Made by a program: the position numbers and the translations under genes. The notes beneath the pieces are model-generated. The model was given only the letters and a program-made list of their open reading frames with translations. It was not told the DNA's origin and made no database searches. Positions 33,678 to 53,814 of a DNA stretch of 64,000 nt are shown in pieces. This DNA is from Streptomyces sp. NBC_01197 (GTDB lineage Bacteria > Actinomycetota > Actinomycetes > Streptomycetales > Streptomycetaceae), in NCBI RefSeq assembly GCF_036010505.1, contig NZ_CP108569.1:1116001-1180000 (forward strand), written 5' to 3'. Each line of letters starts with the position of its first letter. Positions within the stretch are counted from its first letter, which is position 1.

Positions 33678-33691
33678 GACCTCTTAGCAAC
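33678..33691 (-). promoter_or_regulatory. Repressor-site candidate, GTTGCTAAGAGGTC
   Basis: 13 of the 14 positions agree with GTTGNNAAGAGGCC (counting N). No -10 hexamer at 17 bp; instead a hairpin follows. Confidence 0.5.
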
Positions 33692-33700
33692 TTTTAGCGG

Positions 33701-34246
33701 TTACTTGAACTCGCCTGTCTTCTTGTCCTTCCACAGTGGGGCACACTGCTGGTCCTTGGGAGTGCCCTGAGGGGCACCACAGAACTGAGCCTCCCAAGAG
33801 CCACCGTTCTTGTAATTCCGGTTCCCATGAGCACATGTATAGCCACCTCCAGCGGCCACAGGAGCCTGTGCAACCGGCTGATGAACTACCTGACCATTCT
33901 GGAAAGTGGGCTGGGCAACCGGAGTACTCGGAGTACCAGGGTTATAGGTGGAACGAACATAATCAGCGGCTCGGGAAACCAGCTCAATAAGCCCCTCGTT
34001 CTTCATGGCTGCAACAAGTGCCTTAGCATCCCGTGCAGTCTGCTCTGCACTAGCCCCATAAACAGTGGGGGTGAACCACTCCGCATCGTAGCCAGCAGCA
34101 GCCTTAAGGGTCATGCCAATCTTGAAGGGGTTAGGAGAAGAAGCAATCGGAGTGGTCACAGGCGGCTCCTGAGCGTTGTTAGCAGCTTCGTGGGACTCCC
34201 AAGGGGAGGTAGTTCCAAACGGGTCGAACGGGTCTTCAGCAGTCAT
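33701..34246 (-). CDS. Phage protein of unknown function with Cys/His tail, 181 aa
   Basis: ATG 34246 follows GGAGG. Layout: low-complexity Pro/Ser front, a globular part (KIGMTLKAAAGYDAEWFTP to LVSRAADYVRSTY), a Pro/Gln linker, and a zinc-binding-like end with CAHGNR...FCGAP...QQCAPLW. The build recalls phage single-strand DNA or RNA-binding accessory proteins, but I cannot assign it. Transcribed from its own promoter at 34266. Confidence 0.65.
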   Translation of the reverse strand: MTAEDPFDPFGTTSPWESHEAANNAQEPPVTTPIASSPNPFKIGMTLKAAAGYDAEWFTPTVYGASAEQTARDAKALVAAMKNEGLIELVSRAADYVRSTYNPGTPSTPVAQPTFQNGQVVHQPVAQAPVAAGGGYTCAHGNRNYKNGGSWEAQFCGAPQGTPKDQQCAPLWKDKKTGEFK

Positions 34247-34265
34247 GTGCTTACCTCCTGGTTTA

Positions 34266-34295
34266 AGTATGCAGGCTTTCTGGCCTCTTCGCAAC
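34266..34295 (-). promoter_or_regulatory. Early promoter with repressor-site candidate
   Basis: Minus strand: TTGCGA (34294-34289), 17 bp, CATACT (34271-34266). The element GTTGCGAAGAGGCC (34295-34282) covers the -35. A SD-bearing leader to ATG 34246 follows. Confidence 0.7.
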
Positions 34296-34306
34296 TTTTA
34301 AAGCAA

Positions 34307-34320
34307 GTGAACTGGCTCAC
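34307..34320. promoter_or_regulatory. GTGA-N6-TCAC palindrome upstream of the promoter
   Basis: GTGAACTGGCTCAC, centre about 20 bp upstream of the -35. Same symmetric form as those at 40460 and 44797; resembles a CRP-family site. Confidence 0.4.
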
Positions 34321-34321
34321 A

Positions 34322-36346
34322 TCAAATAGGGCAGGCTCCCGAAGCGCAGATCTCATCGAAGCCAGTGTCTGTGACCTCAATGCCTACCTCAGCAGCTCGG
34401 AGACGGTACTCAGCCTCAGAGATGCGCTCATACGGACTTTGCGGCATAGACATCTCAGGGAAGACCGTAGTCCCCTTGAGAACAGGCAGGAACTCAGTGA
34501 GGAGCCGCGAGAGTTCATCAACGGAGTACTGCCCAGGGTCAACATTCACTGTGTAGCTCACTGCCTGGTCCGCCCAAGCATCCTGATACAGAGCCTGCAC
34601 AGAGAGCATGTCTCGAATCGTCAGGTCCCCAGCACTCTGGAAGTACTCAGGGAACTCCATCTGATCCAACAGGCTGTCCTTGGTGGGTATCTCTACCACC
34701 ATCGTGTTAGCGGCGTACTGACAGGGCTCTACTTGGTAACCCTGTCGTCGGTACTCCTCTACCTGAGCAATCTCAGAAGGCTCTACAGCAGAGAACCGGA
34801 TGCGCCGAATGAAGTAGGCGGCAAATGGAGCGTGTACAGCCTCGCCAGAAACACCAGCGAGCTTAGAGGTAGTCCCAGTAGGAGCAATCACACGCTTCTT
34901 GATCGGGACAGGGATACGAAGCTGGTTGCAGTACTCACTAGCTGCCTTGTCAACAGCAGCGGCCATGTCTTCCAGCTCTTCAATCAAGCGGTGATCCTCC
35001 CATGCCTGAGAGTAGAGAAGACCTTGCTTAGCCAGGTAGTCAGCGAAGCCAAGGTGCCCAACACCGATACGACGGTAACGGGCAATAGCCTCAGCGGACT
35101 TGGGGTCAGCCACCTCAGCGAAAGTGGCTCGAATCAGATACCGAGTGATGAGCCTGTGTGCCTTGCCAAGCCCAATGGCGTCAACCCCACCAATGTGGTC
35201 AACGAAAGCCCCCAGGTTCACAGAGCCAAGATTGCAGGGCTCCCAGGGAGTGAGAGTGGCCTCTCCACAGGGGTTGGTGGTGTAGGTACCGTCCACCTCT
35301 CCATCAGCCGTCAGAGCTGAGTTCCAGACACCAGGCTCTCCGTTGTGGAGCATCCCCTCAGCAATGGCCTGGAGGACTTCATACGCATAGCCCCCATGAT
35401 ACTTGTCTCGCATCTCAAAGAATCGAGCATCCACCTCAACAGAGATGTTGGTTGTCCAATGCCCGCCGTTCTTCTTGATGTTGATGAACTCGAAAATAAG
35501 CGGGTCATCCCAAAGCATGATGGACATGCGAGCAGAGCGACGGACACCACCAGAGACAATGCACTGAGCAATGGAGTGATCAATCTCCATAGCCTCAAGA
35601 CCAGTTAGAGGCTCAGGTCCACCACAGTTTCTGACAATACCCGCAAAGATCTCCCCTACCTCGTACATCATCTGTGCAAAAGGAGCCGGGCCTGAAGCAG
35701 TACCGCCAAAGCTCTTGAGTACAGCTCCCTTAGGCCGGACACGGCTCACGTCATAGACACGCTCCTGGTGACGTGTCTTGGGGTCGTGGGCAGTCTGAAT
35801 CAGATCACCAAGGGCTGCGGCCCAACCTTCACGGGAATCGAAAACGTCATAACTTCCGTACCACTCATGACTGTACTCATGGGAGATGAGACCAGCCTCA
35901 ACCATGTCTGTGTAGTCCTGGTGCTCAGGGTCACAGACGATGTGGACCTGAACCGGGACCTGGACTGGAGGGAAGTCCTCAAAGTACCGAGCCGAGTAGT
36001 TGGCTCCTACTCCCCCGCCCTCTGCCAGTCGGAGAAGGGTGAAGGTGAAGTGCTCCTCCGGCTTCGCTGAATCCCAGCCAGCAGCCCAGCAGTTGTTGAG
36101 AGCGAAGTCATTGACGCCAGAGGACTTCAGATGCCGTCCAGCAGGCAAAACCTTGAAGCTCTCAATCATCTCAATCAGGGCCTCACGCTCCCCCTCTTCA
36201 ATGTAGCGAGAGGGCACAAGCTTGAGATTCCCGTCAACAACTCGCCGGACTGTATCCGACCAACTCTCCTGAGAGCCATCAGGCTTAGTACGGCTGTACG
36301 TCCGATAGAAAACGGTCTTAGCAGTCTCGGTGGCAAAGCCTGTCAT
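34322..36346 (-). CDS. nrdJ: Class II (B12-dependent) ribonucleotide reductase
   Basis: 674 residues, the size of monomeric Lactobacillus-type reductases. Visible: AGRHLKSSG, NNCWAAGW with an active-site Cys, the radical loop NPCGEATL (Cys and Glu), PTGTTSKLAG phosphate loop, and the redox-active C-terminal CASGACPI. Makes deoxyribonucleotides with adenosylcobalamin, needing no oxygen or small subunit. Feeds the phage polymerase. Confidence 0.94.
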   Translation of the reverse strand: MTGFATETAKTVFYRTYSRTKPDGSQESWSDTVRRVVDGNLKLVPSRYIEEGEREALIEMIESFKVLPAGRHLKSSGVNDFALNNCWAAGWDSAKPEEHFTFTLLRLAEGGGVGANYSARYFEDFPPVQVPVQVHIVCDPEHQDYTDMVEAGLISHEYSHEWYGSYDVFDSREGWAAALGDLIQTAHDPKTRHQERVYDVSRVRPKGAVLKSFGGTASGPAPFAQMMYEVGEIFAGIVRNCGGPEPLTGLEAMEIDHSIAQCIVSGGVRRSARMSIMLWDDPLIFEFINIKKNGGHWTTNISVEVDARFFEMRDKYHGGYAYEVLQAIAEGMLHNGEPGVWNSALTADGEVDGTYTTNPCGEATLTPWEPCNLGSVNLGAFVDHIGGVDAIGLGKAHRLITRYLIRATFAEVADPKSAEAIARYRRIGVGHLGFADYLAKQGLLYSQAWEDHRLIEELEDMAAAVDKAASEYCNQLRIPVPIKKRVIAPTGTTSKLAGVSGEAVHAPFAAYFIRRIRFSAVEPSEIAQVEEYRRQGYQVEPCQYAANTMVVEIPTKDSLLDQMEFPEYFQSAGDLTIRDMLSVQALYQDAWADQAVSYTVNVDPGQYSVDELSRLLTEFLPVLKGTTVFPEMSMPQSPYERISEAEYRLRAAEVGIEVTDTGFDEICASGACPI

Positions 36347-36543
36347 GCATTCTCCTTCTTAGAGCTGCGGGCATAGCTGAGCATTGAGATAAACGTATCC
36401 AGGTCCTCAGCGCTAAAGTTGTGCTCAAAGTCCATGAAATCAGGGGTACCAAATCGGAGATAAGTGAGATCAGACTCACCACCAAACACGACACTGGCTT
36501 TGTAGTCACTGCCAAACAGCAACATTGAGAGCTGAATCTCCAT
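36343..36543 (-). CDS. Small phage protein of unknown function, 66 aa
   Basis: Acidic, DLTYLRFGTPDFMDFEHNF in the middle, Lys tail. Coupled to both neighbours (TAATG and ATGA overlaps). No family recognised. Confidence 0.62.
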   Translation of the reverse strand: MEIQLSMLLFGSDYKASVVFGGESDLTYLRFGTPDFMDFEHNFSAEDLDTFISMLSYARSSKKENA

Positions 36544-37100
36544 TAACGACCAGTCCTTGCATTCCGATTCATAATCTTGGCCAGGGTGTCTACAGCTCGG
36601 TAAGCAGCCCGTTCCTCCGACTGGTCCTTAGCAGGGATGCCATAGATGAAGACCCGCTGAAGCGCCTCCTGATGACGCTCATTCAGCTTAGGAATGGCCT
36701 TAGAGGCGTCAGCCCTGGCAGTCAGAATGTTATCCGAGATACGGCAGCGGGTTAGGTCATCCTTCTTGCCCATGAGCTGACCGATTTCATCATCGGTATA
36801 GGTGAAAGACCTCAGAGCTACACGAACCTCTTCAGGGGTGTAGTAGTACTGGTCGTCCATGAGGTCAAAGTGGTTTCGCTCCTTAGCTGCATAGCGCTTA
36901 CCAGCGTTCCAGCAGACCTTACGGAGAAGATCCTCATCGTCTGTGTACCGAGACAGAATGTGCTTCTCAGTCATCAGGTGAGTGAGGATTTCCTGCTTCA
37001 CATCGTCTGCCTCAACCACAGACCACTTATCAGCAATCTCACGAGCTACCTTACCGGCAATCTCGATGAGTGGAACCCAGTCAATTTCAGTATCGCTCAT
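36543..37100 (-). CDS. Sigma-70-like phage protein
   Basis: 185 residues. Helical front (IAGKVAREIADKW..EADDVKQEILTHL) resembles sigma region 2.1-2.2, followed by YAAKERNH; the end (IPKLNERHQEALQRVFIYG..AAYRAVDTLAKIM) resembles region 4 with a helix-turn-helix. Could be a phage sigma factor for late genes or an anti-/co-sigma mimic. Weak similarity judged by eye only. Confidence 0.6.
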   Translation of the reverse strand: MSDTEIDWVPLIEIAGKVAREIADKWSVVEADDVKQEILTHLMTEKHILSRYTDDEDLLRKVCWNAGKRYAAKERNHFDLMDDQYYYTPEEVRVALRSFTYTDDEIGQLMGKKDDLTRCRISDNILTARADASKAIPKLNERHQEALQRVFIYGIPAKDQSEERAAYRAVDTLAKIMNRNARTGR

Positions 37101-37294
37101 GCACTCTCCAGGCTTTCCAGGTCTTCGTCTCCGAGGTAGAAGAGACCATCAATAGTCCAACGTCCACGCTCGTGTGTTCCACAGTGGGAGCAGTCATTGG
37201 AGATCAGCTCAAACAACAGCTCCCCTTCTGTTACTAGGCACACCTTGTCTCCTTCACGGAAACGCTTGTCTGGGGTCTTGCGTCGCTTAGCCAC
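37097..37294 (-). CDS. Small phage protein with Cys-x2-Cys, 65 aa
   Basis: GTG 37294 has GGAGG 6 bp upstream. Front is basic (AKRRKTPDKRFREGDKV), middle SNDCSHCGTHERG looks like half of a zinc knuckle. Beta-rich. Overlaps both neighbours. Confidence 0.6.
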   Translation of the reverse strand: MAKRRKTPDKRFREGDKVCLVTEGELLFELISNDCSHCGTHERGRWTIDGLFYLGDEDLESLESA

Positions 37295-37475
37295 CCATGT
37301 CCTCCTTGATAGCCGCAATGACCTGGTCATCAAATTCACTGTCAGCAATGTGTCCAGCAACATCCCGAATAAAGGCGACGAGCTGTTCGTACTTCATATT
37401 GGAAGCCATAGTTTCAGCAAGTGACTCCAGGTCCATAGGGACCTCAAGGTAAATAGGCTCAAAGATTCTAGGCAC
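37287..37475 (-). CDS. Small phage protein of unknown function, 62 aa
   Basis: GTG 37475 overlaps the phosphoesterase stop, GGGGAG upstream. Helical and acidic (LESLAETMASNMKYEQLVA). No family recognised. Confidence 0.58.
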   Translation of the reverse strand: MPRIFEPIYLEVPMDLESLAETMASNMKYEQLVAFIRDVAGHIADSEFDDQVIAAIKEDMGG

Positions 37476-38235
37476 TGTACTTCTCCCCATTCACTGTAAA
37501 CTCATGGCCATTCAGCATCACCAGCTCAGGGTAGGACTTCTTACCATCCACCCGAACAATCCCAAAAGCCTGCTGCCAGTTAGCAGCTCCGTACTTCAAG
37601 TAGGCAGCCTGGTTCATCTCCATAAGGTTCCCGATCTCAAGACCAGTGATGGTCTCAACCTTGCCCTTATAGCCCCGAGACTCAGAGATCAGACCAGCCT
37701 TATGTGTGTGGCCACAGACCACTGACTTACCAATCTTTCGAGCCGCACCAATAGCTGTCCCGCCCGCATAGCGGCTCAGGCTGAAGCCCAGGTGCCCATG
37801 AGTAGCTGTCCAGCCAGGGGCAAAGTCATAGAAGTCCTCATGGAAGTCAATGCCCCACTCATCCAGCCGTAGGAGCTTGTCCTCCGTGAAGGGGTTCCCG
37901 TGTTCGTCGTCCAGGAGGGCCGGAGCCTTCTTAGCGAAGTACTGAGCGGGCCTCAGACCATGGTTGCTCTTGATAAGCGAAGAGGGGCCGCTGTATACGG
38001 CCCTGAGAGCCGCACAGTAGTAACGGCGGGTGTACTCAGCATCCTTGAGTGCACCGCCTTCAAACTCGGCCTTGGTGCCCTCAGTCCAGCGAGAAGGCTG
38101 AGGGTAGTCAGTGACATCCCCAATGTTCACTACCTCATCCGGCTGCTGATCCTTAATGTAATTCAGGACCGCCTTCCAGGACTTCCTATCGTGGAATGGC
38201 ATTTGTAGGTCACTGACAAAGCAATAGGTCTTCAA
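37468..38235 (-). CDS. Calcineurin-like metallophosphoesterase
   Basis: 255 residues with a metallophosphatase motif series in variant form: SDLQMPFHD, NIGDVTD, SNHGLRP, THGHLG and CGHTHKAG. The first motif has DxQ in place of the usual DxH. Likely a phosphatase or nuclease; phages carry such genes near replication modules, but the substrate is unknown. TTG start overlaps the stop before it. Confidence 0.8.
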   Translation of the reverse strand: MKTYCFVSDLQMPFHDRKSWKAVLNYIKDQQPDEVVNIGDVTDYPQPSRWTEGTKAEFEGGALKDAEYTRRYYCAALRAVYSGPSSLIKSNHGLRPAQYFAKKAPALLDDEHGNPFTEDKLLRLDEWGIDFHEDFYDFAPGWTATHGHLGFSLSRYAGGTAIGAARKIGKSVVCGHTHKAGLISESRGYKGKVETITGLEIGNLMEMNQAAYLKYGAANWQQAFGIVRVDGKKSYPELVMLNGHEFTVNGEKYSA

Positions 38236-38660
38236 GAGTTCTCCAGTCGCTCGATCTCGAACTCAATATTCTGAATGGCCTTACGGAGATCAGTGACAGC
38301 ATCCTCAGTCTTCAGGCCAGCACGCCAGAGGTACTTGATTGCTGAGCCAACAAAAAAGGGGTAGTGCCCCACAATGTCCTTGCACTCAATCCCAGAGGGG
38401 TGAGACGTGTAGTGGCTGGGATGATTTACCACATCCGGCCTCTTTGCAACTTCTGTCTCAACAGAAAGAGGCGGTGCTGACAGAACCTCATACTCCGACT
38501 CAAGAGTCAGGAAGAAAATATCGGTCCACCAATACTCTCCACCATCAAGGATAAGCTTCACTCCGAAGTCATCGAGCTCCGAGATTACGCCACGCTGACC
38601 CATCACAGTTGACTCATCACTAGTAACCACTACACGGTCACCCACTGAGAACTCGCTCAT
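38232..38660 (-). CDS. DUF3310 protein with an N-terminal SH3-like domain
   Basis: 142 residues: residues 1-60 form a beta-rich SH3/KOW-like unit (FSVGDRVVVTSDESTVMGQ), 75-140 the DUF3310 signature VVNHPSHY...GIECKDIV then KYLWRAGLK and LRKAIQNIEFEIE. DUF3310 is common in phages near nucleotide metabolism; function unproven. A copy of the repressor-site candidate falls in the linker. Confidence 0.83.
   Translation of the reverse strand: MSEFSVGDRVVVTSDESTVMGQRGVISELDDFGVKLILDGGEYWWTDIFFLTLESEYEVLSAPPLSVETEVAKRPDVVNHPSHYTSHPSGIECKDIVGHYPFFVGSAIKYLWRAGLKTEDAVTDLRKAIQNIEFEIERLENS
38437..38450 (-). promoter_or_regulatory. Repressor-site candidate inside the DUF3310 gene
   Basis: GTTGCAAAGAGGCC, exact match to the 14-base consensus, at the codon boundary between the two domains. 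No -10 at 17 bp. Confidence 0.45.
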
Positions 38661-39355
38661 CAGCTATCCAATCCAAGCAGTTGGCGAATAAATCCAGGGC
38701 CATATGAACGACGAAGAGAGTCAGGGTCTTCTCCGTCAGGGAGATCTATAGGGACTCCATTAGGAAGACGCTCAGCCAGCTTCTCTGTCATCTTCCTGCC
38801 AGCCTCATCCCCATCCCCCAGGATGAACACCTTCTCGTAGCCCGCAAAGGAATTGTCGAAGTGGTCCTTCCAGGCGCTCACACCCTGGACAGCAGCTGTG
38901 GGAACTCCGTCCAGCTCAACCGCCCAGGCACTGAACTCACCCTCAGCGATGGCGACATAGGCACTAGGCTGGATCAGGGCACTTGTGTTGTACAGCCTCG
39001 GTTTGTCACCAGGAAGAGACTGGTACTTGCTGTGCTGCTCATGCTGTTCCTTCTCTCCCTTGAGAAAGAAGTAACTGCCATCTATGTCCTTTACGCACTC
39101 ATCCCGCACACAGCGGAATCGAATAGTAGCTGTGAACTTCGAGCCAGCCGGGCGGAGATACGGGATTACAAGATGGTCTCGGTACCTCTCATGGCCCGTT
39201 CTCGCCGAACCTACGAATCCGGGGAGGTGAGTGCTTACGCCCTCTTCCAGTCCTCGGGCCTGAAGGTACAGATCCGCTGGGCTCCCCTTGAACTGCTCCC
39301 AGTACGTCTTCGCTGCTTCCACTGAACCGGGCATTTGCCCATTCGACTGCTTCAC
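38660..39355 (-). CDS. TOPRIM part of a split DNA primase
   Basis: 231 residues. N-terminal segment VEAAKTYWEQF..GLEEGVSTHLPGF and the TOPRIM core AIAEGEFSAWAVE (Glu) and FILGDGDEAGRKM (DxD), as in DnaG-type primases. GTG 39355 has GGAAGGA upstream. Overlaps the zinc-finger part by 167 bp in another frame. Makes RNA primers for the phage polymerase. Confidence 0.85.
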   Translation of the reverse strand: MKQSNGQMPGSVEAAKTYWEQFKGSPADLYLQARGLEEGVSTHLPGFVGSARTGHERYRDHLVIPYLRPAGSKFTATIRFRCVRDECVKDIDGSYFFLKGEKEQHEQHSKYQSLPGDKPRLYNTSALIQPSAYVAIAEGEFSAWAVELDGVPTAAVQGVSAWKDHFDNSFAGYEKVFILGDGDEAGRKMTEKLAERLPNGVPIDLPDGEDPDSLRRSYGPGFIRQLLGLDS

Positions 39356-39575
39356 GGAATGTAAGTCCTTCCTCCCTCATGATGACTGAGTACGAGTCCT
39401 CTGAGACATCACATGCATGGCATTTCCAGCGATTGACACTGGTATTAACAGAGGCGCTAGGCCGCTCTTCAGCATGAAGGGGGCAGAGAATCTTGATCCA
39501 ATACTTGGATGGATAGATCTCCAGACCGTAGAAATGGTCCAGAACGTCTGCAATAGGGGGCTTCTCACTGCTCAA
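39189..39575 (-). CDS. Zinc-finger (CHC2) part of a split DNA primase
   Basis: 128 residues: CPLHAEERPSASVN and WKCHACDVSEDSYSVIM form the CHC2 zinc site, followed by GLTFREAVEWANARF. The last ~45 residues, in the overlap with the TOPRIM gene, are low-complexity and look like out-of-frame reading. TTG 39575 start, AAGGAG about 11 bp upstream. Confidence 0.8.
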   Translation of the reverse strand: MSSEKPPIADVLDHFYGLEIYPSKYWIKILCPLHAEERPSASVNTSVNRWKCHACDVSEDSYSVIMREEGLTFREAVEWANARFSGSSEDVLGAVQGEPSGSVPSGPRTGRGRKHSPPRIRRFGENGP

Positions 39576-39699
39576 CTCGGACCAGCTCCTTTACACCCTC
39601 CTCATTAACCTTGAAGACCTCAACCGGGAAGTTGTACTTGCGGTGAACCATGAGCCAGTCTCGACGGTCGCCCATAACCTCACGGGAATCGGAGTACAT
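39565..39699 (-). CDS. Small phage protein of unknown function, 44 aa
   Basis: ATG 39699 overlaps the endonuclease VII stop; VMGDRRDWLMVHRKYNFPVEV is basic and aromatic. It overlaps the primase front gene by 11 bp. No family recognised. Confidence 0.55.
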   Translation of the reverse strand: MYSDSREVMGDRRDWLMVHRKYNFPVEVFKVNEEGVKELVRVEQ

Positions 39700-40124
39700 C
39701 AGGAATCCTCTCGAAAGTCTTTGTGAAGCCGGGGCCCAAGAATTCGTATCGCTGGAGGATTCTCCAGGTAGTCAGCAGCAGCTCTCAGAACGGCGGGGTT
39801 GTCTCTAGCTGCCGTGAGAAGTCGCCCGTTACAAAGACGGCAACAACCACCACGGAGCAGGCCCGTCTTGTGGGAGTGGTCTAGATTCAGTCGGTAATTC
39901 CGTGACTGTCCGCAGATAGCACAGACGCCTCCCTGAGCCTCAATCAACTTCTCGTACTCGCCCTTGAGCAGTCCGTAGGTCTCTTCAACCCTGTTGGCGT
40001 GAGAAGCCTTAGAGCGAGACTTCTTGGAGCAAGAGCTACAGATGCGCCCTCGGGGGCCAGAGAAGAACTTAGCGGCCCTGTTCTTCAGGCACTTTGTGCA
40101 CTGCCGGGTTTTAGAGGCGACCAT
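39699..40124 (-). CDS. Endonuclease VII-type HNH nuclease
   Basis: 141 residues: N-terminal zinc knuckle CTKCLKNR...CSSC and the endonuclease VII domain with CAICGQSR, LNLDHSHKTG and RGGCCRLCNGRL. Resolves branched DNA such as Holliday junctions before packaging, or acts as an HNH nickase. Confidence 0.87.
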   Translation of the reverse strand: MVASKTRQCTKCLKNRAAKFFSGPRGRICSSCSKKSRSKASHANRVEETYGLLKGEYEKLIEAQGGVCAICGQSRNYRLNLDHSHKTGLLRGGCCRLCNGRLLTAARDNPAVLRAAADYLENPPAIRILGPRLHKDFREDS

Positions 40125-40401
40125 AGTGACCTCTAATCAACTTTTCACACTGCAAAAAACGCTTGTTCTGCATCATGGACTGGAGCTGACCGAGGAAGTC
40201 AAGGAGCTTCAACTTGGCCTTGCCTACCTTGCCCTGATCGAGAATCAGGGTCTTGTATCCCCCAGTCAAGAAGCGGACCAGCACCTCACCAAGCTTCTTG
40301 ACATTCAGCGTACGGGGGTTAGTTATTCGAAGGAGTACCACTGCTTCATTCCCCTGGATGTCCATCTGAAGCCCGAAGCCAACGTTCCCTTTGCTCTTCA
40401 T
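40111..40401 (-). CDS. Phage protein of unknown function, 96 aa, probably leaderless
   Basis: 96 residues, basic, mixed alpha/beta (VVLLRITNPRTLNVKKLGE). The -10 of its promoter ends 6 bp before ATG 40401, so transcription should start at or next to the A of ATG. Stop overlaps the next gene. Confidence 0.65.
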   Translation of the reverse strand: MKSKGNVGFGLQMDIQGNEAVVLLRITNPRTLNVKKLGEVLVRFLTGGYKTLILDQGKVGKAKLKLLDFLGQLQSMMQNKRFLQCEKLIRGHYGRL

Positions 40402-40407
40402 GGTCTA

Positions 40408-40437
40408 AGTATGCGCCTCTCGTGGCCTCTTGGCAAC
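40408..40437 (-). promoter_or_regulatory. Early promoter with repressor-site candidate, leaderless transcript
   Basis: Minus strand: TTGCCA (40436-40431), 17 bp, CATACT (40413-40408); element GTTGCCAAGAGGCC at 40437-40424. Confidence 0.7.
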
Positions 40438-40459
40438 TTATTTGTGAAGGAGATGTGTA

Positions 40460-40473
40460 GTGATCCAGGTCAC
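40460..40473. promoter_or_regulatory. GTGATCCAGGTCAC palindrome
   Basis: Perfect GTGA-N6-TCAC and also a match to GTG-N6-GNCAC, the Streptomyces Crp consensus as I recall it. Centre about 30 bp upstream of the -35. Confidence 0.45.
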
Positions 40474-40796
40474 TCGGTGGACAGTTCATCTTCAAAGACC
40501 AGGTAGGAGTCCCCATCCTGCTCCACGACCCACTTGGAGAGCCCACCCCACTTGAACGGGCCAGACTTCACAACCGCTTCAAAGCCACTCCACAACACAA
40601 CCCGGTTCAAGGTGAACCGGGGAAGCTCCTCAACCTCCGCCATGTCCCACTCAACAGTCTGTCCTGAGCACCCACCAGTAGTGAGCTTGACCAGCACCTT
40701 CTCTCGGGACTCAGAGCCCTCGTAGGGCCCATACACAACGTCCCCCTGGACAGGGAAGTTGATGCTCTCCAGCTTCGAGCCAACCTTGATGGTCAT
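40470..40796 (-). CDS. Phage protein of unknown function, 108 aa
   Basis: Beta-rich with tandem SH3/Tudor-like character (VQGDVVYGPYEGSES.., LNRVVLWSGFEAVVKSG). No family recognised. ATG 40796 lies 10 bp after the DnaB-like stop. Confidence 0.68.
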   Translation of the reverse strand: MTIKVGSKLESINFPVQGDVVYGPYEGSESREKVLVKLTTGGCSGQTVEWDMAEVEELPRFTLNRVVLWSGFEAVVKSGPFKWGGLSKWVVEQDGDSYLVFEDELSTE

Positions 40797-40805
40797 ACAG
40801 ACTCC

Positions 40806-41639
40806 TTAGAAATTGGTGCCACTGATGTCCACTACGTCAGTCAGCCGGAGTGACTGACTGTCCAGCTCTAGAGCGGCAAAGGTGCCCCCAGAGGCATCCA
40901 CAACGCCTTCACGGTTCTTGACAGGGCTCACATTCAGAATCTGGTTGCCCCCCATCTCGTCATCCTGCTCACGATGGATGGTGAGGATGAGGCTTGGGAC
41001 GCGCCCAATCTTGCCCTTCACACCAGACAGCGGGATCGGCTTAAGACCATCTGAGTACTCACCAACCACATGGTGAAGTGCCATTACATGGGACTGAGTC
41101 TCCCGAGCCATGTCGTTCAGGTACTCACACATGCCCTCAAGGCCAAAGGTAAATGACTCGGCGTCAGGGCTTCCGCCAATATCAACGTTGGTGATGTTAT
41201 CCACGACGCAGAGATGCGGGTAGCACCCGAAGACCTCAAAGTACGTCGCGAGGTCTCGCTCCATATCAGCTGGACTTGGAGTCGCATCGTAGTTAAAGCG
41301 AATCCACCAGCGCTCACCAAGGACCCTCTCATACTCCCCAAAGTCATCAGAGAGGAGCTTCGCCTTGATGGACTTAACGCTGTCCCCAGTGATGATGGCT
41401 GTGGCCCTGGAGAGCTGTGTAGCAGCATTTGAGTCCGCAGACCAGTAGATGCTAGGCATACTCCCGAACAGAGCCAAATTCAGGGCGAAGAGAGACTTTC
41501 CTGTGCCAGGGCCAGCAGAGCACAGAGAGAACTCTCCGCGCCGGAACTCAACGTCCAGCTTTTGAAGTGCCTTGGATGGATTAGGGATTGGTTCACCAGC
41601 AGCACCCTTGATGCGTACTGATTGAGCCAAGCTATACAT
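40806..41639 (-). CDS. DnaB-like/RecA-fold ATPase, probable replicative helicase
   Basis: 277 residues: FRRGEFSLCSAGPGTGKSLFA holds Walker A, LCVVDNITNVD Walker B, ALHHVVGEY and ILTIHRE follow the DnaB C-terminal order. The N-terminal DnaB domain is missing, as in many actinophage helicases. Acts with the primase and polymerase. Confidence 0.87.
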   Translation of the reverse strand: MYSLAQSVRIKGAAGEPIPNPSKALQKLDVEFRRGEFSLCSAGPGTGKSLFALNLALFGSMPSIYWSADSNAATQLSRATAIITGDSVKSIKAKLLSDDFGEYERVLGERWWIRFNYDATPSPADMERDLATYFEVFGCYPHLCVVDNITNVDIGGSPDAESFTFGLEGMCEYLNDMARETQSHVMALHHVVGEYSDGLKPIPLSGVKGKIGRVPSLILTIHREQDDEMGGNQILNVSPVKNREGVVDASGGTFAALELDSQSLRLTDVVDISGTNF

Positions 41640-41656
41640 TTCACTCCTTCAGTGAA

Positions 41657-41685
41657 GGGGCCTGGCTTAAACCAAACCAGGCCCC
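41657..41685 (-). terminator. GC hairpin between a stoperator-like element and the helicase gene
   Basis: GGGGCCTGG / CCAGGCCCC arms with 11-nt loop, 18 bp before the ATG of the helicase gene. Similar in sequence to the hairpin at 33645. Confidence 0.55.
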
Positions 41686-41687
41686 AT

Positions 41688-41701
41688 GGCCTCTTGTCAA
41701 C
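41688..41701 (-). promoter_or_regulatory. Repressor-site candidate, GTTGACAAGAGGCC
   Basis: Exact consensus with a perfect TTGACA, but no -10 at 17 bp; the hairpin at 41657 follows directly. Confidence 0.55.
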
Positions 41702-41719
41702 TCCTTGAGCAAATAAAAA

Positions 41720-41800
41720 TCAGTGTCCACCGGGACATGCAGAACGGTGGCAATTGTGTGTCCAGCACCAGTCAGGCGATCTGGTCGGATCGTCGCTCAT
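41720..41800 (-). CDS. Possible 26-residue Cys/His peptide
   Basis: CGGAGG is ideally spaced before ATG 41800; the peptide ends WCWTHNCHRSACPGGH, with C and H placed as a mini zinc knuckle. Lies in a 190-bp gap that otherwise holds only the control element. Could be a translated leader. Confidence 0.4.
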   Translation of the reverse strand: MSDDPTRSPDWCWTHNCHRSACPGGH

Positions 41801-41839
41801 GCCTGTACCTCCGGATCGATGAAATCAGCAGCAAACACA

Positions 41840-42352
41840 TCAGTCGTGGCTGTAGTACTCAACTTCAATACCAGTATTACGAACAGTCACTAGCGCATGG
41901 TCCCCAAAAGCATCCAGGAGGGCATTCTCATAGGCCCCAGACTGGATAGCACCGTCAAGCTCCTGGACCCGGTTGTACCGGTCCTCATCTGGCCCCTCGT
42001 AGCGGCTGTTCACGTATTCCCGAGCCTCTGCATCCCAATCACTCACTACCTTGCCAAGGCTCGGGTGATAAAAGATGTCAAGATTGTAAGTGGGCTCGAA
42101 CTCCTCCCCATACTCGTCCACACCATCAACCTCAGAAGCGGTACGAACCCACATGCCATTGACGCTGAACTCGCATGTATCTCCATCATTGAAATAGGGA
42201 GTGTACTGAGTCCACCCGAATTCAACAATAGTCGGGTCATCAATCAGCGACTGGAGGAGAGGTGCCAGATCCTCTACCGGCTTCTGCTCTACTCGGGTTG
42301 AACCCCCATGGATCTCGCCAGAGACAGGAATACCGAGGAAATTAGTCGTCAT
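41840..42352 (-). CDS. Phage protein of unknown function, 170 aa
   Basis: Acidic, aromatic-rich, with FGWTQYTPYFNDGDTCEFSV and YNLDIFYHPSLG; mixed fold, no signal. Overlaps the gene upstream by ATGA. No family recognised with confidence. Confidence 0.7.
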   Translation of the reverse strand: MTTNFLGIPVSGEIHGGSTRVEQKPVEDLAPLLQSLIDDPTIVEFGWTQYTPYFNDGDTCEFSVNGMWVRTASEVDGVDEYGEEFEPTYNLDIFYHPSLGKVVSDWDAEAREYVNSRYEGPDEDRYNRVQELDGAIQSGAYENALLDAFGDHALVTVRNTGIEVEYYSHD

Positions 42353-42753
42353 ACTGAAGCCTCCGTGGGCTGGTTGAGAAGAAGATGAGAGAGGGGAACT
42401 TCCTTGCGCTTAGAGCCGGACATCCAAGCAGCAATAGGCATGTTCTCGATGTAATCAGCCGGGGAAGGAAGCCAACCCAGGTCTTCAATGATGTGCCTCT
42501 CGGCAACAAGCCGAGTAGGCACACTCACAGTACGTGTATGTGAACTACCAGGAGTACCCTTCGGGATATCAAGTGTTGGGCCAAACACCTCCTGGACCAG
42601 CCACACCCCAAGAGTGTGGTGGTACATCGACCGATGTCGGGCATCTCCCAAAACCTTCTTAGAGGAGTCAATGAACTCCTCAATAGGCAAGTAGTGCTCT
42701 GGCTCTCCGCCCCACTTCTTGGCAGCGGATACTGCATGATTCCAGCTATTCAC
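42349..42753 (-). CDS. DUF6915-like phage protein
   Basis: 134 residues; SWNHAVSAAKKWGGEPEHYLPI, RHRSMYHHTLGVWLVQEVFG and VAERHIIEDLGWLPSPADYI match the order of conserved blocks I recall for DUF6915. Several invariant-looking His suggest a metal site. GTG 42753, with AAAGGAG 8 bp upstream, preferred over GTG 42762. Confidence 0.72.
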   Translation of the reverse strand: MNSWNHAVSAAKKWGGEPEHYLPIEEFIDSSKKVLGDARHRSMYHHTLGVWLVQEVFGPTLDIPKGTPGSSHTRTVSVPTRLVAERHIIEDLGWLPSPADYIENMPIAAWMSGSKRKEVPLSHLLLNQPTEASV

Positions 42754-42779
42754 TGGCTTCACTCCTTTGCTCTGTTCTC

Positions 42780-42809
42780 AGTCTGACTGAGAGTTGGCCT
42801 CTTGTCAAC
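42780..42809 (-). promoter_or_regulatory. Early promoter with repressor-site candidate
   Basis: TTGACA (42808-42803), 17 bp, CAGACT (42785-42780); element GTTGACAAGAGGCC at 42809-42796. The stop codon of the Cas4-like gene lies inside the -35. Confidence 0.72.
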
Positions 42810-43924: not shown

Positions 43925-43973
43925 GAGCCCCCCTGCGCCTACGACCAGAGGTAGTAGTACCTCTTGGATACTG

Positions 43974-44001
43974 AATGTACACGAATCCTTCACAACTGCA
44001 A
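43974..44001 (-). promoter_or_regulatory. Possible promoter of the nuclease operon
   Basis: TTGCAG (44001-43996), 16 bp, TACATT (43979-43974). A GTGACCAGGACCAC half-symmetric site (44015-44028) lies about 20 bp upstream. Lacks the GAGGCC element. Confidence 0.45.
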
Positions 44002-44080
44002 GACGTATGTTCTAGTGACCAGGACCACACGCTTGAACTTGCAACCATGAGGCAACCCTTAGAAACGGAAAGACCCCCTG

Positions 44081-44107
44081 CAATTGACAGGGGGTCTAAC
44101 TTTCTCA
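44081..44107 (-). terminator. Terminator of the repressor gene
   Basis: AGACCCCCTG / CAGGGGGTCT perfect 10-bp stem with 7-nt loop and TTT, 3 bp after the repressor stop. It separates repressor transcription from the early operon. Confidence 0.9.
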
Positions 44108-44110
44108 CGC

Positions 44111-44605
44111 TCAAGATGGAGGGTCCGGTAGCTCCAGAAGACTCCTGGAGGCCCCATCAGGGAAGGGCAGTTCAGGCGGCCAGTCAATCACCAGGCGTCC
44201 ATCCTCCGGCCTCCTGTCCCTGTAGGACCAGCCAGCAGAGGACGTACTGTCGTAGCAGAGGACTAGCCCCTTCCTCCTGATGCGGTTCTCCCACTGAGCT
44301 GCCGTCTCGCGCTGAAGATCGGACAGACCGTCATCTCCTAGCTTGGCTCGTAGCCACAGCTTGAGGCTCTTGCCTGCTCGGTGGCTGTGGTGGGACTTCC
44401 CGTACTGCGACGTGAGGATGCCACCCCACCGGTAGTTGAGTAGCTCAGACACCTCCTCGGCCGCCGGAAGGCGCTTCAATCCCAGTCCCACCATGCGCTT
44501 ACTCACCGCCTGATGGGACACCCCGTAAGTCCGGGCGATCTTCTTGTAAGGCACGCCCAGGTGAAACAGTTTGATCATGACACTGTCTGTCGGCAGGCTA
44601 GTCAT
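44111..44605 (-). CDS. Probable immunity repressor, L5 gp71-like
   Basis: 164 residues. Helix-turn-helix at about 18-42 (VPYKKIARTYGVSHQAVSKRMVG), then a basic stretch (YGKSHHSHRAGKSLKLWLR) and an aromatic C-terminal part with W..RIRRKGLVLCYD, WSYRDRR and LVIDWPPELP. The order (N-terminal HTH, NYRW/H-rich middle, VL-Y/FD, RDR, final WP) parallels mycobacteriophage L5 gp71 as I remember it. ATG 44605 follows GAAGAGGA. It has its own promoter and terminator, as expected for a lysogenic repressor, and sits at the divergent control region. Confidence 0.7.
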   Translation of the reverse strand: MTSLPTDSVMIKLFHLGVPYKKIARTYGVSHQAVSKRMVGLGLKRLPAAEEVSELLNYRWGGILTSQYGKSHHSHRAGKSLKLWLRAKLGDDGLSDLQRETAAQWENRIRRKGLVLCYDSTSSAGWSYRDRRPEDGRLVIDWPPELPFPDGASRSLLELPDPPS

Positions 44606-44676
44606 GATGTAAGTCCTCTTCAGTTTAGAGAGGGTGTTCCCCGGGGCCCTCCCTGTCTGGCCCAACCCTCGTTCAT

Positions 44677-44702
44677 CTGTAACAAAACAGTACCGGTTAC
44701 AG
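44677..44702. promoter_or_regulatory. CTGTAAC...GTTACAG inverted repeat at the repressor promoter
   Basis: 7-bp perfect arms (44677-44683, 44696-44702) with 12-bp centre, overlapping the putative -10. Candidate autoregulatory site. Confidence 0.4.
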
Positions 44703-44715
44703 GACTAGACGACAA
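44687..44715 (-). promoter_or_regulatory. Putative repressor promoter
   Basis: TTGTCG (44715-44710), 17 bp, TACTGT (44692-44687). Expected start about 80 bp before ATG 44605. Confidence 0.5.
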
Positions 44716-44748
44716 GTCTAATTGATCTGTGATCTGAGTCTCAAGCTC

Positions 44749-44762
44749 GGCCCCGTGGCAAC
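44749..44762 (-). promoter_or_regulatory. Degenerate repressor-site candidate
   Basis: GTTGCCACGGGGCC departs from GTTGNNAAGAGGCC at two to three positions; leftward orientation, upstream of the repressor promoter. Confidence 0.3.
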
Positions 44763-44796
44763 TTCCGCCTGGACTCTAGTCAACCACGGATAGCAT

Positions 44797-44810
44797 GTGA
44801 TGTGAGTCAC
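44797..44810. promoter_or_regulatory. GTGATGTGAGTCAC palindrome in the control region
   Basis: Perfect GTGA-N6-TCAC and GTG-N6-GNCAC match; sits between the leftward and rightward promoters. Confidence 0.45.
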
Positions 44811-44926
44811 ATCTACTAAAGATCTGTCAAGAACCTCAGCAGTTGACACAGACATCCTTTATAGAAGAGTAAGTAACTACTAAACACTCTCCTTGGCTCT
44901 CTGTAGTTTACATCACTGCCTAGGTA

Positions 44927-44956
44927 GTTGACAAGAGGCCACGCAGTGGCTACTCT
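44927..44956 (+). promoter_or_regulatory. Rightward phage promoter with repressor-site candidate
   Basis: TTGACA (44928-44933), 17 bp, TACTCT (44951-44956); element GTTGACAAGAGGCC at 44927-44940, the only exact copy in the rightward direction. Confidence 0.7.
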
Positions 44957-44992
44957 ATAGTTAGAAGAGAGTAAGTAGTAGTTAGTTACTAA

Positions 44993-45137
44993 AGAAGCTC
45001 CCTTAAGGAGCTTCTACTAAGAGTTTCCTTCTGTTGAACCACTGTTGAGTAGCCAGAGCCTTTAAGCTCTGGCTTTCCAGAGAAAGAGTTCCAGAAGGTA
45101 GTTAGCCCTGGCTGCTAGATCAGAACCCAGCCAGGGC
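44993..45137 (+). other. Three successive hairpins in the late leader
   Basis: Perfect 9-bp stems: AGAAGCTCC (44993-45001 / 45007-45015), AGCCAGAGC (45051-45059 / 45066-45074) and GCCCTGGCT (45105-45113 / 45129-45137). None has a strong U tract; leader attenuation or RNA processing is possible. Confidence 0.6.
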
Positions 45138-45209
45138 GAGTCTTGACCAGTCACCGCAGGAGGCACTGTCCTTGTGCTGACTGGCACAACTTAGTGGGGG
45201 AGGCACACA

Positions 45210-45527
45210 GTGCCCAGAGCCAAATCAATCTGCCTGCGAGCTGGTTGTGTCTCCCTCACTGTGCAGGATGGCCGATGCCGAGAGCATCAGGCCCGTAAGA
45301 GCTGGGACAGGAAGTCAGCCAGGAATCAGAGTCGCCCAGGCAACTGGAACACTCTACGAGCCCAGGTGCTTGCCAGGGATGGCTTCAAGTGCCAGAGGTG
45401 TGGTTCCAGGGAGAACCTGGAGGTTGACCATTTGATCTCAGTCGCCAAGGGAGGCGGCTGGGAGATGGACAATCTTTTGGTTCTTTGTCATGAGTGCCAC
45501 ATCAAGAAGTCAAAGCAGTTTGGTTAG
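45210..45527 (+). CDS. HNH endonuclease next to terminase
   Basis: 105 residues: N-terminal CLRAGC and CREH zinc part; HNH core CQRCGSRENLEVDHLISVAKGG and NLLVLCHECHIKK. Phages with HNH genes beside terminase often need them for DNA packaging/cleavage at the genome ends. GTG 45210 follows GGGGGAGG. Confidence 0.88.
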   Translation: MPRAKSICLRAGCVSLTVQDGRCREHQARKSWDRKSARNQSRPGNWNTLRAQVLARDGFKCQRCGSRENLEVDHLISVAKGGGWEMDNLLVLCHECHIKKSKQFG

Positions 45528-45531
45528 TTCA

Positions 45532-45606
45532 TCCCTCGGTAGCTCAATTGGTTAGAGCGTCGCCCTCATAAGGCGAAGGTTGGTGGTTCGAGTCCATGGC
45601 GAGGGA
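45532..45606 (+). tRNA. Phage tRNA with CAT anticodon (Met or Ile2)
   Basis: Acceptor TCCCTCG/CGAGGGA, D arm GCTCAATTGGTTAGAGC, anticodon stem TCGCC/GGCGA around CTCATAA, T loop TTCGAGT with one weak T-stem pair. Whether CAT is modified to read AUA cannot be told. No encoded CCA. Confidence 0.88.
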
Positions 45607-45661
45607 CGACCCCTTTACATCTGAGGGTCTGGGCAGCACTCCCCCTGAAAGAGTGCACATA

Positions 45662-45732
45662 CCTTTCGTAGCTCAATGGTAGAGCGGTGCGTTGTGGTCG
45701 CACTGATTCCGGTTCAACTCCGGGCGATGGGA
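45662..45732 (+). tRNA. Phage tRNA-His (GTG)
   Basis: Anticodon stem GTGCG/CGCAC with loop TTGTGGT, T arm CCGG-TTCAACT-CCGG. The acceptor stem CCTTTCG/CGATGGG has one mismatch. No encoded CCA. Confidence 0.8.
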
Positions 45733-45778
45733 CCGCCTCCCCTAAGCCTCTCAACGATGCTCAAATAGGTGGAGCCTT

Positions 45779-45859
45779 GGTAGTGCTGGGCATTGGTAGA
45801 GCCCACCTGGCTGTAAACCAGACGCTTCGGCTGTGCAGGTTCAATTCCTGCTGCTACCA
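45779..45859 (+). tRNA. Phage tRNA-Tyr (GTA)
   Basis: Acceptor GGTAGTG/TGCTACC (two wobble pairs), anticodon stem CTGG/CCAG with loop CTGTAAA, long class II variable arm, T arm GCAGG-TTCAATT-CCTGC. Confidence 0.85.
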
Positions 45860-45867
45860 CTTAACCC

Positions 45868-45896
45868 ACCCCGTTCCTTGTGAGCGGGGTTTTTTA
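45868..45896 (+). terminator. Rho-independent terminator after the tRNAs
   Basis: ACCCCG / CGGGGT stem followed by TTTTTT. Confidence 0.85.
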
Positions 45897-45926
45897 TTGC
45901 CTTCATTCATTCATTCAAGGAGACTG

Positions 45927-46142
45927 ATGAGCCCCGAGGACATTGAGAACCGCTTTACCTACCATGCTCCTGATGCGTACAAGGTTCACGCCCATCAGCG
46001 CGTTCGCAATCTCTTTTACGATGCAGCGGAAGTACTGGACATCGAGCTTCCTGAGGGCCGAGAGAAGGCTCTTGCGGTTACCAAGCTGGAAGAGGCAATG
46101 TTCTGGACTAACGCCTCTATTGCTCGGAGTGCTGATGTCTGA
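45927..46142 (+). CDS. acb2: Acb2-like cyclic-nucleotide sponge (anti-CBASS)
   Basis: 71 residues; ATG 45927 with AAGGAG 4 bp upstream. Starts EDIENRFTYHAP and ends REKALAVTKLEEAMFWTNASIAR, both hallmark blocks of phage Acb2 (DUF7681) proteins, with Tyr12 in the position of the ligand-contacting Tyr and Lys19 near that of the ligand Lys. Acb2 hexamers bind cGAMP and other cyclic di- and trinucleotides made by bacterial CBASS, so the effector is not activated. Usual length is about 90; the middle is shorter or diverged here. First protein gene of the packaging operon. Confidence 0.85.
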   Translation: MSPEDIENRFTYHAPDAYKVHAHQRVRNLFYDAAEVLDIELPEGREKALAVTKLEEAMFWTNASIARSADV

Positions 46143-51571: not shown

Positions 51572-51604
51572 GACGCTCCTTCCCTTTGAAGGGAGGGATG
51601 TCTA

Positions 51605-52156: not shown

Positions 52157-52160
52157 GGCC

Positions 52161-52484
52161 ATGTTTGATGAGGTAGTGGAGTTCTACTCAGCTGAAGAGC
52201 TGGAAGGCTCTTACACGGTCAAGAGGGATTGGGGAAACCCCACGTTGGTCCTCACCTCTCGTGCCTCGGTACAGCCGGACCGGGTGTTTGAGACCAGGTC
52301 CCCAGAGAGGGACTTGGCTCAGTCCAGGCTCCATGTGTACGTCCCTTACACCGAAGTTCTTTCAGAAAACGACCGCTGTAAGTGGCGGGGAGATTGGTAC
52401 GAGATTGATGGCCCTCCCCAGCTCTGGCCCTATGGGACTACCCGTCACACTCACCTACTGATTTGGAAGGCGAGTAACGGATGA
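52161..52484 (+). CDS. Head-tail stopper (head closure) protein
   Basis: 107 residues, beta-rich, with SRLHVYVPYTE and DWYEIDGPPQLWP as in siphovirus head closure proteins. Position between adaptor and tail completion genes supports this. Confidence 0.78.
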   Translation: MFDEVVEFYSAEELEGSYTVKRDWGNPTLVLTSRASVQPDRVFETRSPERDLAQSRLHVYVPYTEVLSENDRCKWRGDWYEIDGPPQLWPYGTTRHTHLLIWKASNG

Positions 52485-52825
52485 GTAGAGGAATCACCTT
52501 TACCCCTGGCTGGGAAGATGCAATGTTCTCCACTCTTGAGTGTGGGGCACTGGTTGCAGAAGTTGCGGAACGAATTCGAATTGCTGTCATCCGGGAGGCT
52601 CCCAGGAACTCCAGCACTCATACGAACTGGAACCAGATCAAGAAGAACATCACTGCTTCTGTTGAGAGAGACGCCAGAGGCTATTACGGCGAAGTCACCA
52701 TTGAAGAGAATGACAAGGTTCGCCACGCGCTCCTCCAGGACCGTGGCTGGACTGACAGAGCCGGAAGGCATCACAAGGGCCTCCAGTACATGAAGGAGGC
52801 GCTACTGAGGGAGCGGATTGAATGA
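52481..52825 (+). CDS. Neck/tail completion protein (HK97 gp10-like)
   Basis: 114 residues; IAVIREAPRNS and the GYYGEVTIEEN segment with a C-terminal basic helix match gp10-like connectors. Overlaps both neighbours by 4 bp. Confidence 0.72.
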   Translation: MSRGITFTPGWEDAMFSTLECGALVAEVAERIRIAVIREAPRNSSTHTNWNQIKKNITASVERDARGYYGEVTIEENDKVRHALLQDRGWTDRAGRHHKGLQYMKEALLRERIE

Positions 52826-53202
52826 TTGTTGATCCTGTTGACTCAGTAGTCATCTTCCTCAGAACCTTCCCTGATCTGCCCAAGGCCGTTGGAGATCTAA
52901 ACGCAAGGAATGTCGGAGATCCCACTCTCTATGTGTTCTCCACTGGTGGTTTTCGGATGCTCCGAGAGTCCATGGACAGGACAGACATCAAATATGAGGT
53001 CTACCACCAGGACAGGGAAACTGCGGTTGCACTGGCCTTTGAGGTTAGAGAGCACTTGCTTTCAAGCCTCCCAGGGGTTGTGGCTGGCAATGCCTATGTG
53101 CTGGACGTAGGAGAGGTAAATCAGCCCTACTACGATCCCGACCCCACTTCTCGTGAGCATGTGTATTGCGGGGAGATCGCCCTCTTCTACGTTCAAAATT
53201 GA
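52822..53202 (+). CDS. Tail terminator protein
   Basis: 126 residues: VVIFLRTFPDLPKA, YEVYHQDRETAVALAFEVREHL and a final beta strand, the order seen in tail terminators that cap the tube before head joining. Confidence 0.78.
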   Translation: MIVDPVDSVVIFLRTFPDLPKAVGDLNARNVGDPTLYVFSTGGFRMLRESMDRTDIKYEVYHQDRETAVALAFEVREHLLSSLPGVVAGNAYVLDVGEVNQPYYDPDPTSREHVYCGEIALFYVQN

Positions 53203-53215
53203 TTAAGGAGTACAT

Positions 53216-53797
53216 ATGCCTTCTGGAGATGCACAGAAGATTCGCTTTGCACCTGATGGTGCTATCTATCTCGCCCCGACTGGTGGCGGTCTTGTCCTTC
53301 CGACTGATGTCGGTGATGGGGCTACCCCGCCCACTGGATACAAGGCGCTTGGCTATGTCTCGGATGCTGGTGTGACCATTACCCCTGCTATTCAGACCAC
53401 GCCTCTGAATGCCTGGCAGTCTGCGGCCCCTGTTCTGTACAACGTGGACTCCGCTAGCTTCCAGCTCTCTGCGACCCTGATTGAGGCCAACAAGCTGGTT
53501 ACTGAGAACTTCTTCGGTGCCACCTGGACTGAGGTTATGGATCAGTCGAGTCAGCCCACTGGGGACTACCGCCTGGACCTGTCCACCACACCGGATCTCC
53601 AGGAGTTCTCGGTCGTCGTGGACTGGAAGTACAAGACCAATCTGTGGCGTGCGGTTGTCGGCCGGGCCATGGTTACTGAGCGAGGGGCTATCACCCTTCA
53701 GCGGACTCAGAACCAGAGCTACGAGCTGACCATTAATGCCATGGACAACTCTGGGAGCCTGGGCTACATCCTCACCAATGAGTCTATGACTGCCTAA
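53216..53797 (+). CDS. Major tail (tube) protein
   Basis: 193 residues, ends EQSYELTINAMD-like (QSYELTINAMDNSG); IYLAPTGGGLVLPTD start and GYVSDAGVTI are hallmarks of actinophage tube proteins. Its gene is followed by a terminator, as expected for a very abundant product. Confidence 0.88.
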   Translation: MPSGDAQKIRFAPDGAIYLAPTGGGLVLPTDVGDGATPPTGYKALGYVSDAGVTITPAIQTTPLNAWQSAAPVLYNVDSASFQLSATLIEANKLVTENFFGATWTEVMDQSSQPTGDYRLDLSTTPDLQEFSVVVDWKYKTNLWRAVVGRAMVTERGAITLQRTQNQSYELTINAMDNSGSLGYILTNESMTA

Positions 53798-53800
53798 AAT

Positions 53801-53814
53801 GTTGCATAGAGGCC
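53801..53814 (+). promoter_or_regulatory. Near-match to the repressor-site consensus after the tail tube gene
   Basis: GTTGCATAGAGGCC, one mismatch to GTTGNNAAGAGGCC; last four bases are part of the terminator stem. Confidence 0.35.

Follow-up and report, generated by a model that had tools for sequence, protein, structure and literature searches.

The closest described relatives of the system considered here are the immunity circuits of phage L5 and other cluster A phages, with L5 gp71, the TipsytheTRex repressor (7R6R/7TZ1), and Trixie gp75 as repressors. In TipsytheTRex, a repressor monomer binds one asymmetric site via a helix-turn-helix (HTH) and a stoperator domain, with RNA polymerase reaching the HTH first, and a site placed in reverse no longer allows elongation to be repressed (PMC9283540). 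For L5-clade phages, a role in autoregulation was proposed for a conserved site in the gap upstream of the repressor gene (PMC6550527), and a repressor-stoperator system is also present in R4 (PMC10276819). Here, we describe an asymmetric, directional motif in a prophage of Streptomyces sp. NBC_01197, which begins within a stretch of 64,000 nucleotides (GCF_036010505.1, contig NZ_CP108569.1, positions 1,116,001 to 1,180,000; hereafter the window, from whose first base coordinates are counted unless marked as genome positions). The motif, taken in the form AAGTTGACAAGAGGCC as predicted repressor target, very probably serves as operator/stoperator for the repressor that the prophage itself encodes, the product of rep (44111-44605). 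This reading draws directly on the set of sites, their direction and confinement to the prophage, the homology and fold of the repressor, and the private motifs of its relatives.

All six exact 14-base matches listed in an earlier note on this DNA lie at the positions and on the strands given there, and its near matches at 33678 and 53801 (one mismatch each) and 44749 (two mismatches) were found as well. With up to two mismatches, the window holds 16 matches, compared to a mean of 6.4 and a maximum of 13 in 100 shuffles. Across the whole genome, all seven exact matches fall inside the prophage. Allowing one mismatch gave 17 matches, 4 of them inside the prophage, and since a backward-read control gave 14 in all, the 13 matches outside look like background. 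The form AAGTTGNNAAGAGGYC occurs seven times here, is absent from the backward control, and was found in none of 391 other genomes of the genus. The motif is thus neither equally common in the host chromosome nor randomly oriented, and its prophage-only exact matches and absence from the other genomes rule out a chance or host-wide motif. A weight matrix (consensus ctTGC..aAaAAGTTGa.AAGAGGCCAga) yielded 12 sites, ten leftward in leftward arms and two rightward in the rightward arm, so that every site reads with its local arm, as had been claimed; for genome position 1193858 this direction is that of the arm, since its stretch has no clear gene. Sites additional to the earlier note are those at 40128 and 44771 and, outside the window, three weight-matrix sites at genome positions 1191375, 1191782, and 1193858. 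The proposed flank was also recovered, AAGTTG being present in 8 of the 12 sites and an A-rich stretch preceding the site. A blind over-represented-word count in the prophage did not place the motif at the top; the 12 sites (motif with two free bases) were recovered only via the pattern of the earlier note and the weight matrix.

The rep product is homologous to the L5/cluster A repressor family (gp71/TipsytheTRex) across both DNA-binding domains. It shares 46% identity with Ibantik gp55, annotated 'immunity repressor', and 86% with P0002 from Streptomyces sp. NBC_01500, and its family match is phrog_357 (E value, 3.3e-6). When the rep product was used as a single query sequence against viral and genome contigs, no relative was found. 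The description of this gene as encoding a gp71-like HTH protein stands, both domains matching the family; for the claimed terminator a hairpin was seen at 44071-44097, the longest stem among 11 matches in a scan for which 9.4 were expected, and a promoter of its own was not established. As in L5 and cluster A, the sites combine a conserved TTG half with a variable half, and the order rep, small gene, Cas4/RecB exonuclease, DnaB helicase is the same. However, cluster A sites start with CTTG, whereas those of the prophage start with GTTG and have the private second half AAGAGGYC; the prophage has fewer sites, and its repressor carries lysine (recognition-helix position 36) where TipsytheTRex has W50 and histidine where it has R45. 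Streptomyces phages of the R4 type likewise have a related repressor (R4 gp29, 'similar to L5 gp71'; phiJoe gp32) and many oriented sites. Their subgroup, phrog_3929, was rejected as the home of rep given an E value of only 0.0089 and a differing site polarity, and the HTH of the R4 repressor is different from that of rep. Read with transcription, the R4 and Joe motifs are TGTGCAAGTG and TGTGACAGTG, with a polarity of the TTG half unlike that in cluster A and the prophage; as they run the opposite way, both were left out of the TTG alignment. The homology, the private oriented motif, and the relatives support in kind the earlier proposal of an L5-type immunity circuit with a new site sequence in a Streptomyces phage. 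Its details needed correction: the element is a prophage, right-arm sites lie outside the window, R4-like phages provide a precedent, and the sites start with GTTG rather than CTTG.

The Streptomyces phages Ibantik, Success, and Ponzi have the same genome plan as the prophage and a syntenic repressor gene. They contain 6 to 12 sites each, with motifs of their own (GTTGNNACGAGACA, GTTGCNTCCTGGG, and CTTGAARCTGTCA, respectively), and our literature search found no paper describing these sites. Leftward sites at the right end are present in all three as in the prophage; in Ibantik, the counterpart of site 1193858 has the -35/-10-like pair TTGACA-N17-TAGTCT (by eye). Counts of over-represented words, made without use of the prophage motif, revealed that most relatives have their own asymmetric word beside a repressor homologue: GTTGWCACGAGACATG in Ibantik, TTAGTTGCCTCCTGGG in Success, AACTTGAAACTGTCA in Ponzi, ACTTGACATTCACC in Trixie, and, in genus loci, AAGTTGGAATGTGACA (G025), AAGTTGGGATGTGACA (G146), ACTTGCTTTGTGGT (G031), AAAGTTGTCGTGAGCT (G302), and AAAGTTGATGTGCGA with CTTGACCGGTAAC in a second prophage (both G035). 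Motifs were also found in the later viral contigs L090, L091, L092 (Ibantik-like), L093, L098, L108, and L110; the viral motif sample comprised 19 of 33 loci plus Taquito (L123), with L124 (Stap) left out. When the exact cores of 19 motifs were searched in 21 sequences, they matched mainly their own phage, with cross-matches among G025, G146, and L110, between Ibantik and L092, and between R4 and Joe, and otherwise one or two stray matches. The closest repressors have common motifs, and distant ones do not. A co-directional site just upstream of the repressor gene was detected in six of seven viral relatives scanned, perfect in L110 and with one or two mismatches in L090, L091, L092, L093, and L108 (none in L098). 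L094 and L110, which bear one record number (IMG/VR 2933705211), encode family repressors with different motifs, GTTGATGTGCGA and GTTGGAGTGTGA, as expected of co-resident heteroimmune prophages.

Relative to transcription, the TTG half comes first in 12/12 sites here and in 12/12 in Trixie. Likewise, in seven cluster A/CA phages of Mycobacterium, Gordonia, and Rhodococcus, selected from 1082 records, CTTG words lie almost only on the transcribed strand, the exception being the Abrogate word TTGACACGTAA (2 versus 2 by strand). The published consensuses for cluster CA, TGTCTATTGTCAAG (PMC13313380), and A15, GGGGATTGTCAAG (PMC5559632), are the CTTG half seen from the opposite strand. The layout of a conserved and a variable part is not new, because the A15 study, like earlier reports, already describes an invariant site end and positions 2 to 8 that track immune specificity (PMC5559632). 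For the swap to GTTG, no description was found among the publications that the literature search covered. At the residue corresponding to W50 of TipsytheTRex, lysine goes with a GTTG consensus in 12/12 systems, and W, F, L, or I with CTTG in 13/13, G035b being mixed by site (4 CTTG, 2 GTTG). The rule set before the test loci was Trp with CTTG, Lys with GTTG, and Ile mixed; its extension to Leu and Phe was added afterwards, and the 14 later systems include two near copies (L092 of Ibantik and LittleCherry of Chadwick). On a tree, with a single 0/1 label for both traits, which coincide in all 25 systems, Lys/GTTG needs at least three changes, of which well-supported branches force one and provide one independent pair. 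Relatedness could therefore explain this covariation between residue 36 and the first base, which is suggestive only. Of the 12 systems with a His-His pair in the stoperator domain (72-73 here), 11 have G at both position 9 and position 11, compared to 1 of the 13 without the pair, a rule compiled by eye and post hoc. H73 of rep aligns with K81 of TipsytheTRex, which contacts a guanine (PMC9283540).

It appears very unlikely that the motif, rather than being a repressor site, is mainly an early promoter family (a TTGNNA -35 element plus AGAGGCC) recognized by polymerase in its host or phage-modified form. Such a role would suit the TTG at -35 with a plausible -10 element at 34282, 40424, and 44927, and the GCATACTTARACC block that 34282 and 40424 have in common at equal distance and that occurs nowhere else in the prophage. 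However, no -10 element is evident by eye at 33678, 41688, 53801, 75375, and 75782, where hairpins or ribosome-binding sites are found; a generic promoter scan of 33000-46000 showed no excess (3 found, 5.1 expected), 40424 being the sole promoter on a site in the site's direction; and the AGAGGYC half corresponds to no known promoter element and varies among related phages. The earlier note had placed four sites on the -35 of TTG-N17 promoters, which holds for 34282 and 40424, with weaker -10 elements at 42796 and 44927 (by eye). Only some sites overlap plausible promoters, and that at 44927 is probably of promoter type.

Strict orientation, together with the strong hairpins behind 33678 and 41688, the terminator-like one behind 53801, and an rRNA-leader-like box 126 nucleotides (nt) past the right-end site, would also fit a directional signal that acts in the RNA, for processing, termination, or antitermination. 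We consider this very unlikely: most sites lack a strong hairpin behind them, inverted repeats spanning the site are uncommon (2/12), and in cluster A the repressor binds the equivalent sites as DNA (PMC9283540). Least likely of all is binding by a different phage or host DNA-binding protein. Our searches began from the repressor, which in part accounts for finding one beside each motif, but the lack of sites in the other genomes of the genus speaks against a host protein, and rep belongs to a family known for such sites, with motif sharing following repressor closeness.

Several observations weigh against a repressor operator/stoperator. The prophage has only 12 clear sites, compared to 24 reported for L5 and 26 for TipsytheTRex, and the exact site at 38437 and the near site at 40128 are inside coding sequence. 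The model of rep superimposes on 7R6R with a root mean square deviation of 9.0 Å, which indicates that the two domains are placed differently in the model; VIA matches below 7R6R span the HTH only, and the absence of other families there carries no weight. The histidine of rep stands where TipsytheTRex has R45, which is essential in that repressor (PMC9283540). Among the ten genus loci that contain a homologue, four (G024, G240, G290, and G167) yielded no clear motif, nor did 9 of 20 viral loci, six of these nine being under 14 kb and three over 20 kb.

Under the operator/stoperator reading, one repressor molecule would occupy each asymmetric site, bound through two domains. Its N-terminal HTH would contact the AAGTTG half, first met by RNA polymerase, and its C-terminal stoperator domain would contact AAGAGGYC. 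The assignment of the (G/C)TTG half to the HTH is suggested by the polarity of TipsytheTRex and the Lys/Trp covariation. Initiation would be blocked at promoter sites, notably at the Pleft-like right-end site 1193858, and at intergenic sites elongating polymerase arriving from the GTTG side would be stopped. The two decayed sites before rep probably limit its own synthesis. As an outcome, early and late genes would be silent in the lysogen, which would be immune to phages with the same site.

Features of the prophage, in window coordinates unless marked as genome positions
Feature	Position	Strand	Basis or surroundings
attL-side copy, 13-bp repeat	25724..25736	.	partner at 82486-82498
Serine integrase	25764..27377	+	at prophage start
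Site, 1 mismatch	33678..33691	-	5' of gene 33066-33632; strong hairpin behind
Exact site	34282..34295	-	on -35 of promoter-like TTGCGA-N17-CATACT
Exact site	38437..38450	-	within gene 38232-38660
Site, 2 mismatches	40128..40141	-	on ribosome-binding site of gene 39699-40124; in end of gene 40111-40401
Exact site	40424..40437	-	on -35 of promoter-like TTGCCA-N17-CATACT
Exact site	41688..41701	-	5' of DnaB-like helicase gene; strong hairpin behind
Exact site	42796..42809	-	across end of Cas4/RecB-like exonuclease gene (5/14 bases inside)
Terminator-like hairpin, 3' of rep	44071..44097	-	hairpin scan
rep, predicted immunity repressor, 164 amino acids, HTH and stoperator domain	44111..44605	-	family match, fold
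Degenerate site, 2 mismatches	44749..44762	-	upstream of rep; candidate weak autoregulation operator
Degenerate site, 2 mismatches	44771..44784	-	upstream of rep
Exact site	44927..44940	+	divergent from rep, before HNH/tRNA/virion arm; TTGACA-N17-TACTCT
Site, 1 mismatch	53801..53814	+	after open reading frame ending 53797; terminator-like hairpin behind
Weight-matrix site	genome 1191375 (window-equivalent 75375)	-	on ribosome-binding site
Weight-matrix site	genome 1191782 (window-equivalent 75782)	-	on ribosome-binding site
Weight-matrix site, right end, Pleft-like	genome 1193858 (window-equivalent 77858)	-	TTGCGA-N16-TAGTGT, by eye

The left boundary of the prophage is at about 25724, and its right boundary lies outside the window, within the 7.7-Mb genome. 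Copies of a 13-bp repeat, GTAGTTGTAGACG, at 25724-25736 and window-equivalent 82486-82498 delimit about 56.8 kb, and G+C content rises from 0.58 to 0.68 near 82000. The leftward early arm encodes DNA polymerase A, ThyX, ribonucleotide reductase, primase, the DnaB-like helicase, and the RecB/Cas4-like exonuclease, and is followed by rep and then by rightward HNH, tRNA, and virion genes. In the left arm, which is 91% coding, four of seven sites are fully intergenic, one lies across a gene end, and two are coding (one at a gene overlap). The hairpins directly behind two sites (33640-33690 and 41650-41701) reach -25.7 and -24.4 kcal/mol in 36-nt windows and lack a clear T run. A hairpin after the site was dismissed as a rule, being strong in 2/12 and terminator-like in a third (53801). 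The same applies to inverted repeats spanning the site: arms of at least 7 were seen in 2/12 prophage sites, 3/12 in Ibantik, 2/9 in Success, 0/6 in Ponzi, 1/12 in Trixie, 3/22 in G025, 5/21 in G146, 1/4 in G031, and 0/17 in G302, G035a, and G035b together, versus 4-12% at random places. In G025 and G146, a perfect inverted repeat encloses some of the stoperators, with CAGGGGCTCA-site-TGAGCCCCTG as an example from each. An Rfam abiF RNA match at 45738-45774 (+), between two phage tRNA genes, scores 37.0 bits, exactly the gathering score, and is possibly due to chance. The host part of the window contains a thiamine pyrophosphate (TPP) riboswitch at 18113-18207 (-).

The box past the right-end site, CCTTGAGAACTCAATAG, is located on the leftward strand (L028 13729-13745 [-]; genome 1193729-1193745). 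It follows the site by 136 nt in Ibantik and two sites by 274 and 407 nt in Success, and in G031 two sites are followed, at 261 and 376 nt, by a box with two mismatches. Within two mismatches, it was detected in 5 of 18 sequences (prophage, Ibantik, Success, G031, and Joe, with one mismatch in phiJoe); at this threshold it was not found in Ponzi and R4, and several other scanned sequences stop before the right end. We take its core, GAACUCAAUAG, to be a NusA-binding boxC element. A 20-base form, TTTGAGAACTCAATAGTGTG, occurs in at least 119 stretches across many actinobacterial genomes, and the 16S rRNA gene starts about 150-170 nt after it in 5/5 contigs of Nocardia and Arthrobacter, hand-picked for a length suggestive of an rRNA operon. 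In the own genome no 16S rRNA gene was found, rRNA being probably masked. The 17-mer box was found in 58 viral contigs, in 12 of which it lies 595-698 nt from the 5' end of the available stretch, read on the leftward strand; ten of these 12 are 49-52 kb long and, judging from this length, probably R4-like. The mycobacterial rrn leader contains a conserved BoxA antitermination element, as described in a passage that does not give the present sequence (PMC10218544). None of the literature matches listed reports the leader box in actinophages in its title or the opening of its abstract.

We tentatively speculate, though we consider it doubtful, that two opposed elongation controls act on the early operon in this group of actinophages, with the rRNA-type box in the Pleft leader making polymerase resist ordinary termination and the stoperators braking in the lysogen, and that the sites follow a two-part code, in which the first base is G or C depending on whether residue 36 is Lys, and the His-His pair goes with G9-N-G11. 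Lying behind the right-end operator, the leader box hints at a way in which early polymerase might pass other terminators. Our analysis adds a further branch of Streptomyces phages to the cluster A and R4-like phages as probable users of repressor-stoperator silencing. With these divergent, naturally matched repressor-site pairs, the residues that determine immunity specificity and the one-way stopping of polymerase by a bound monomer become testable.

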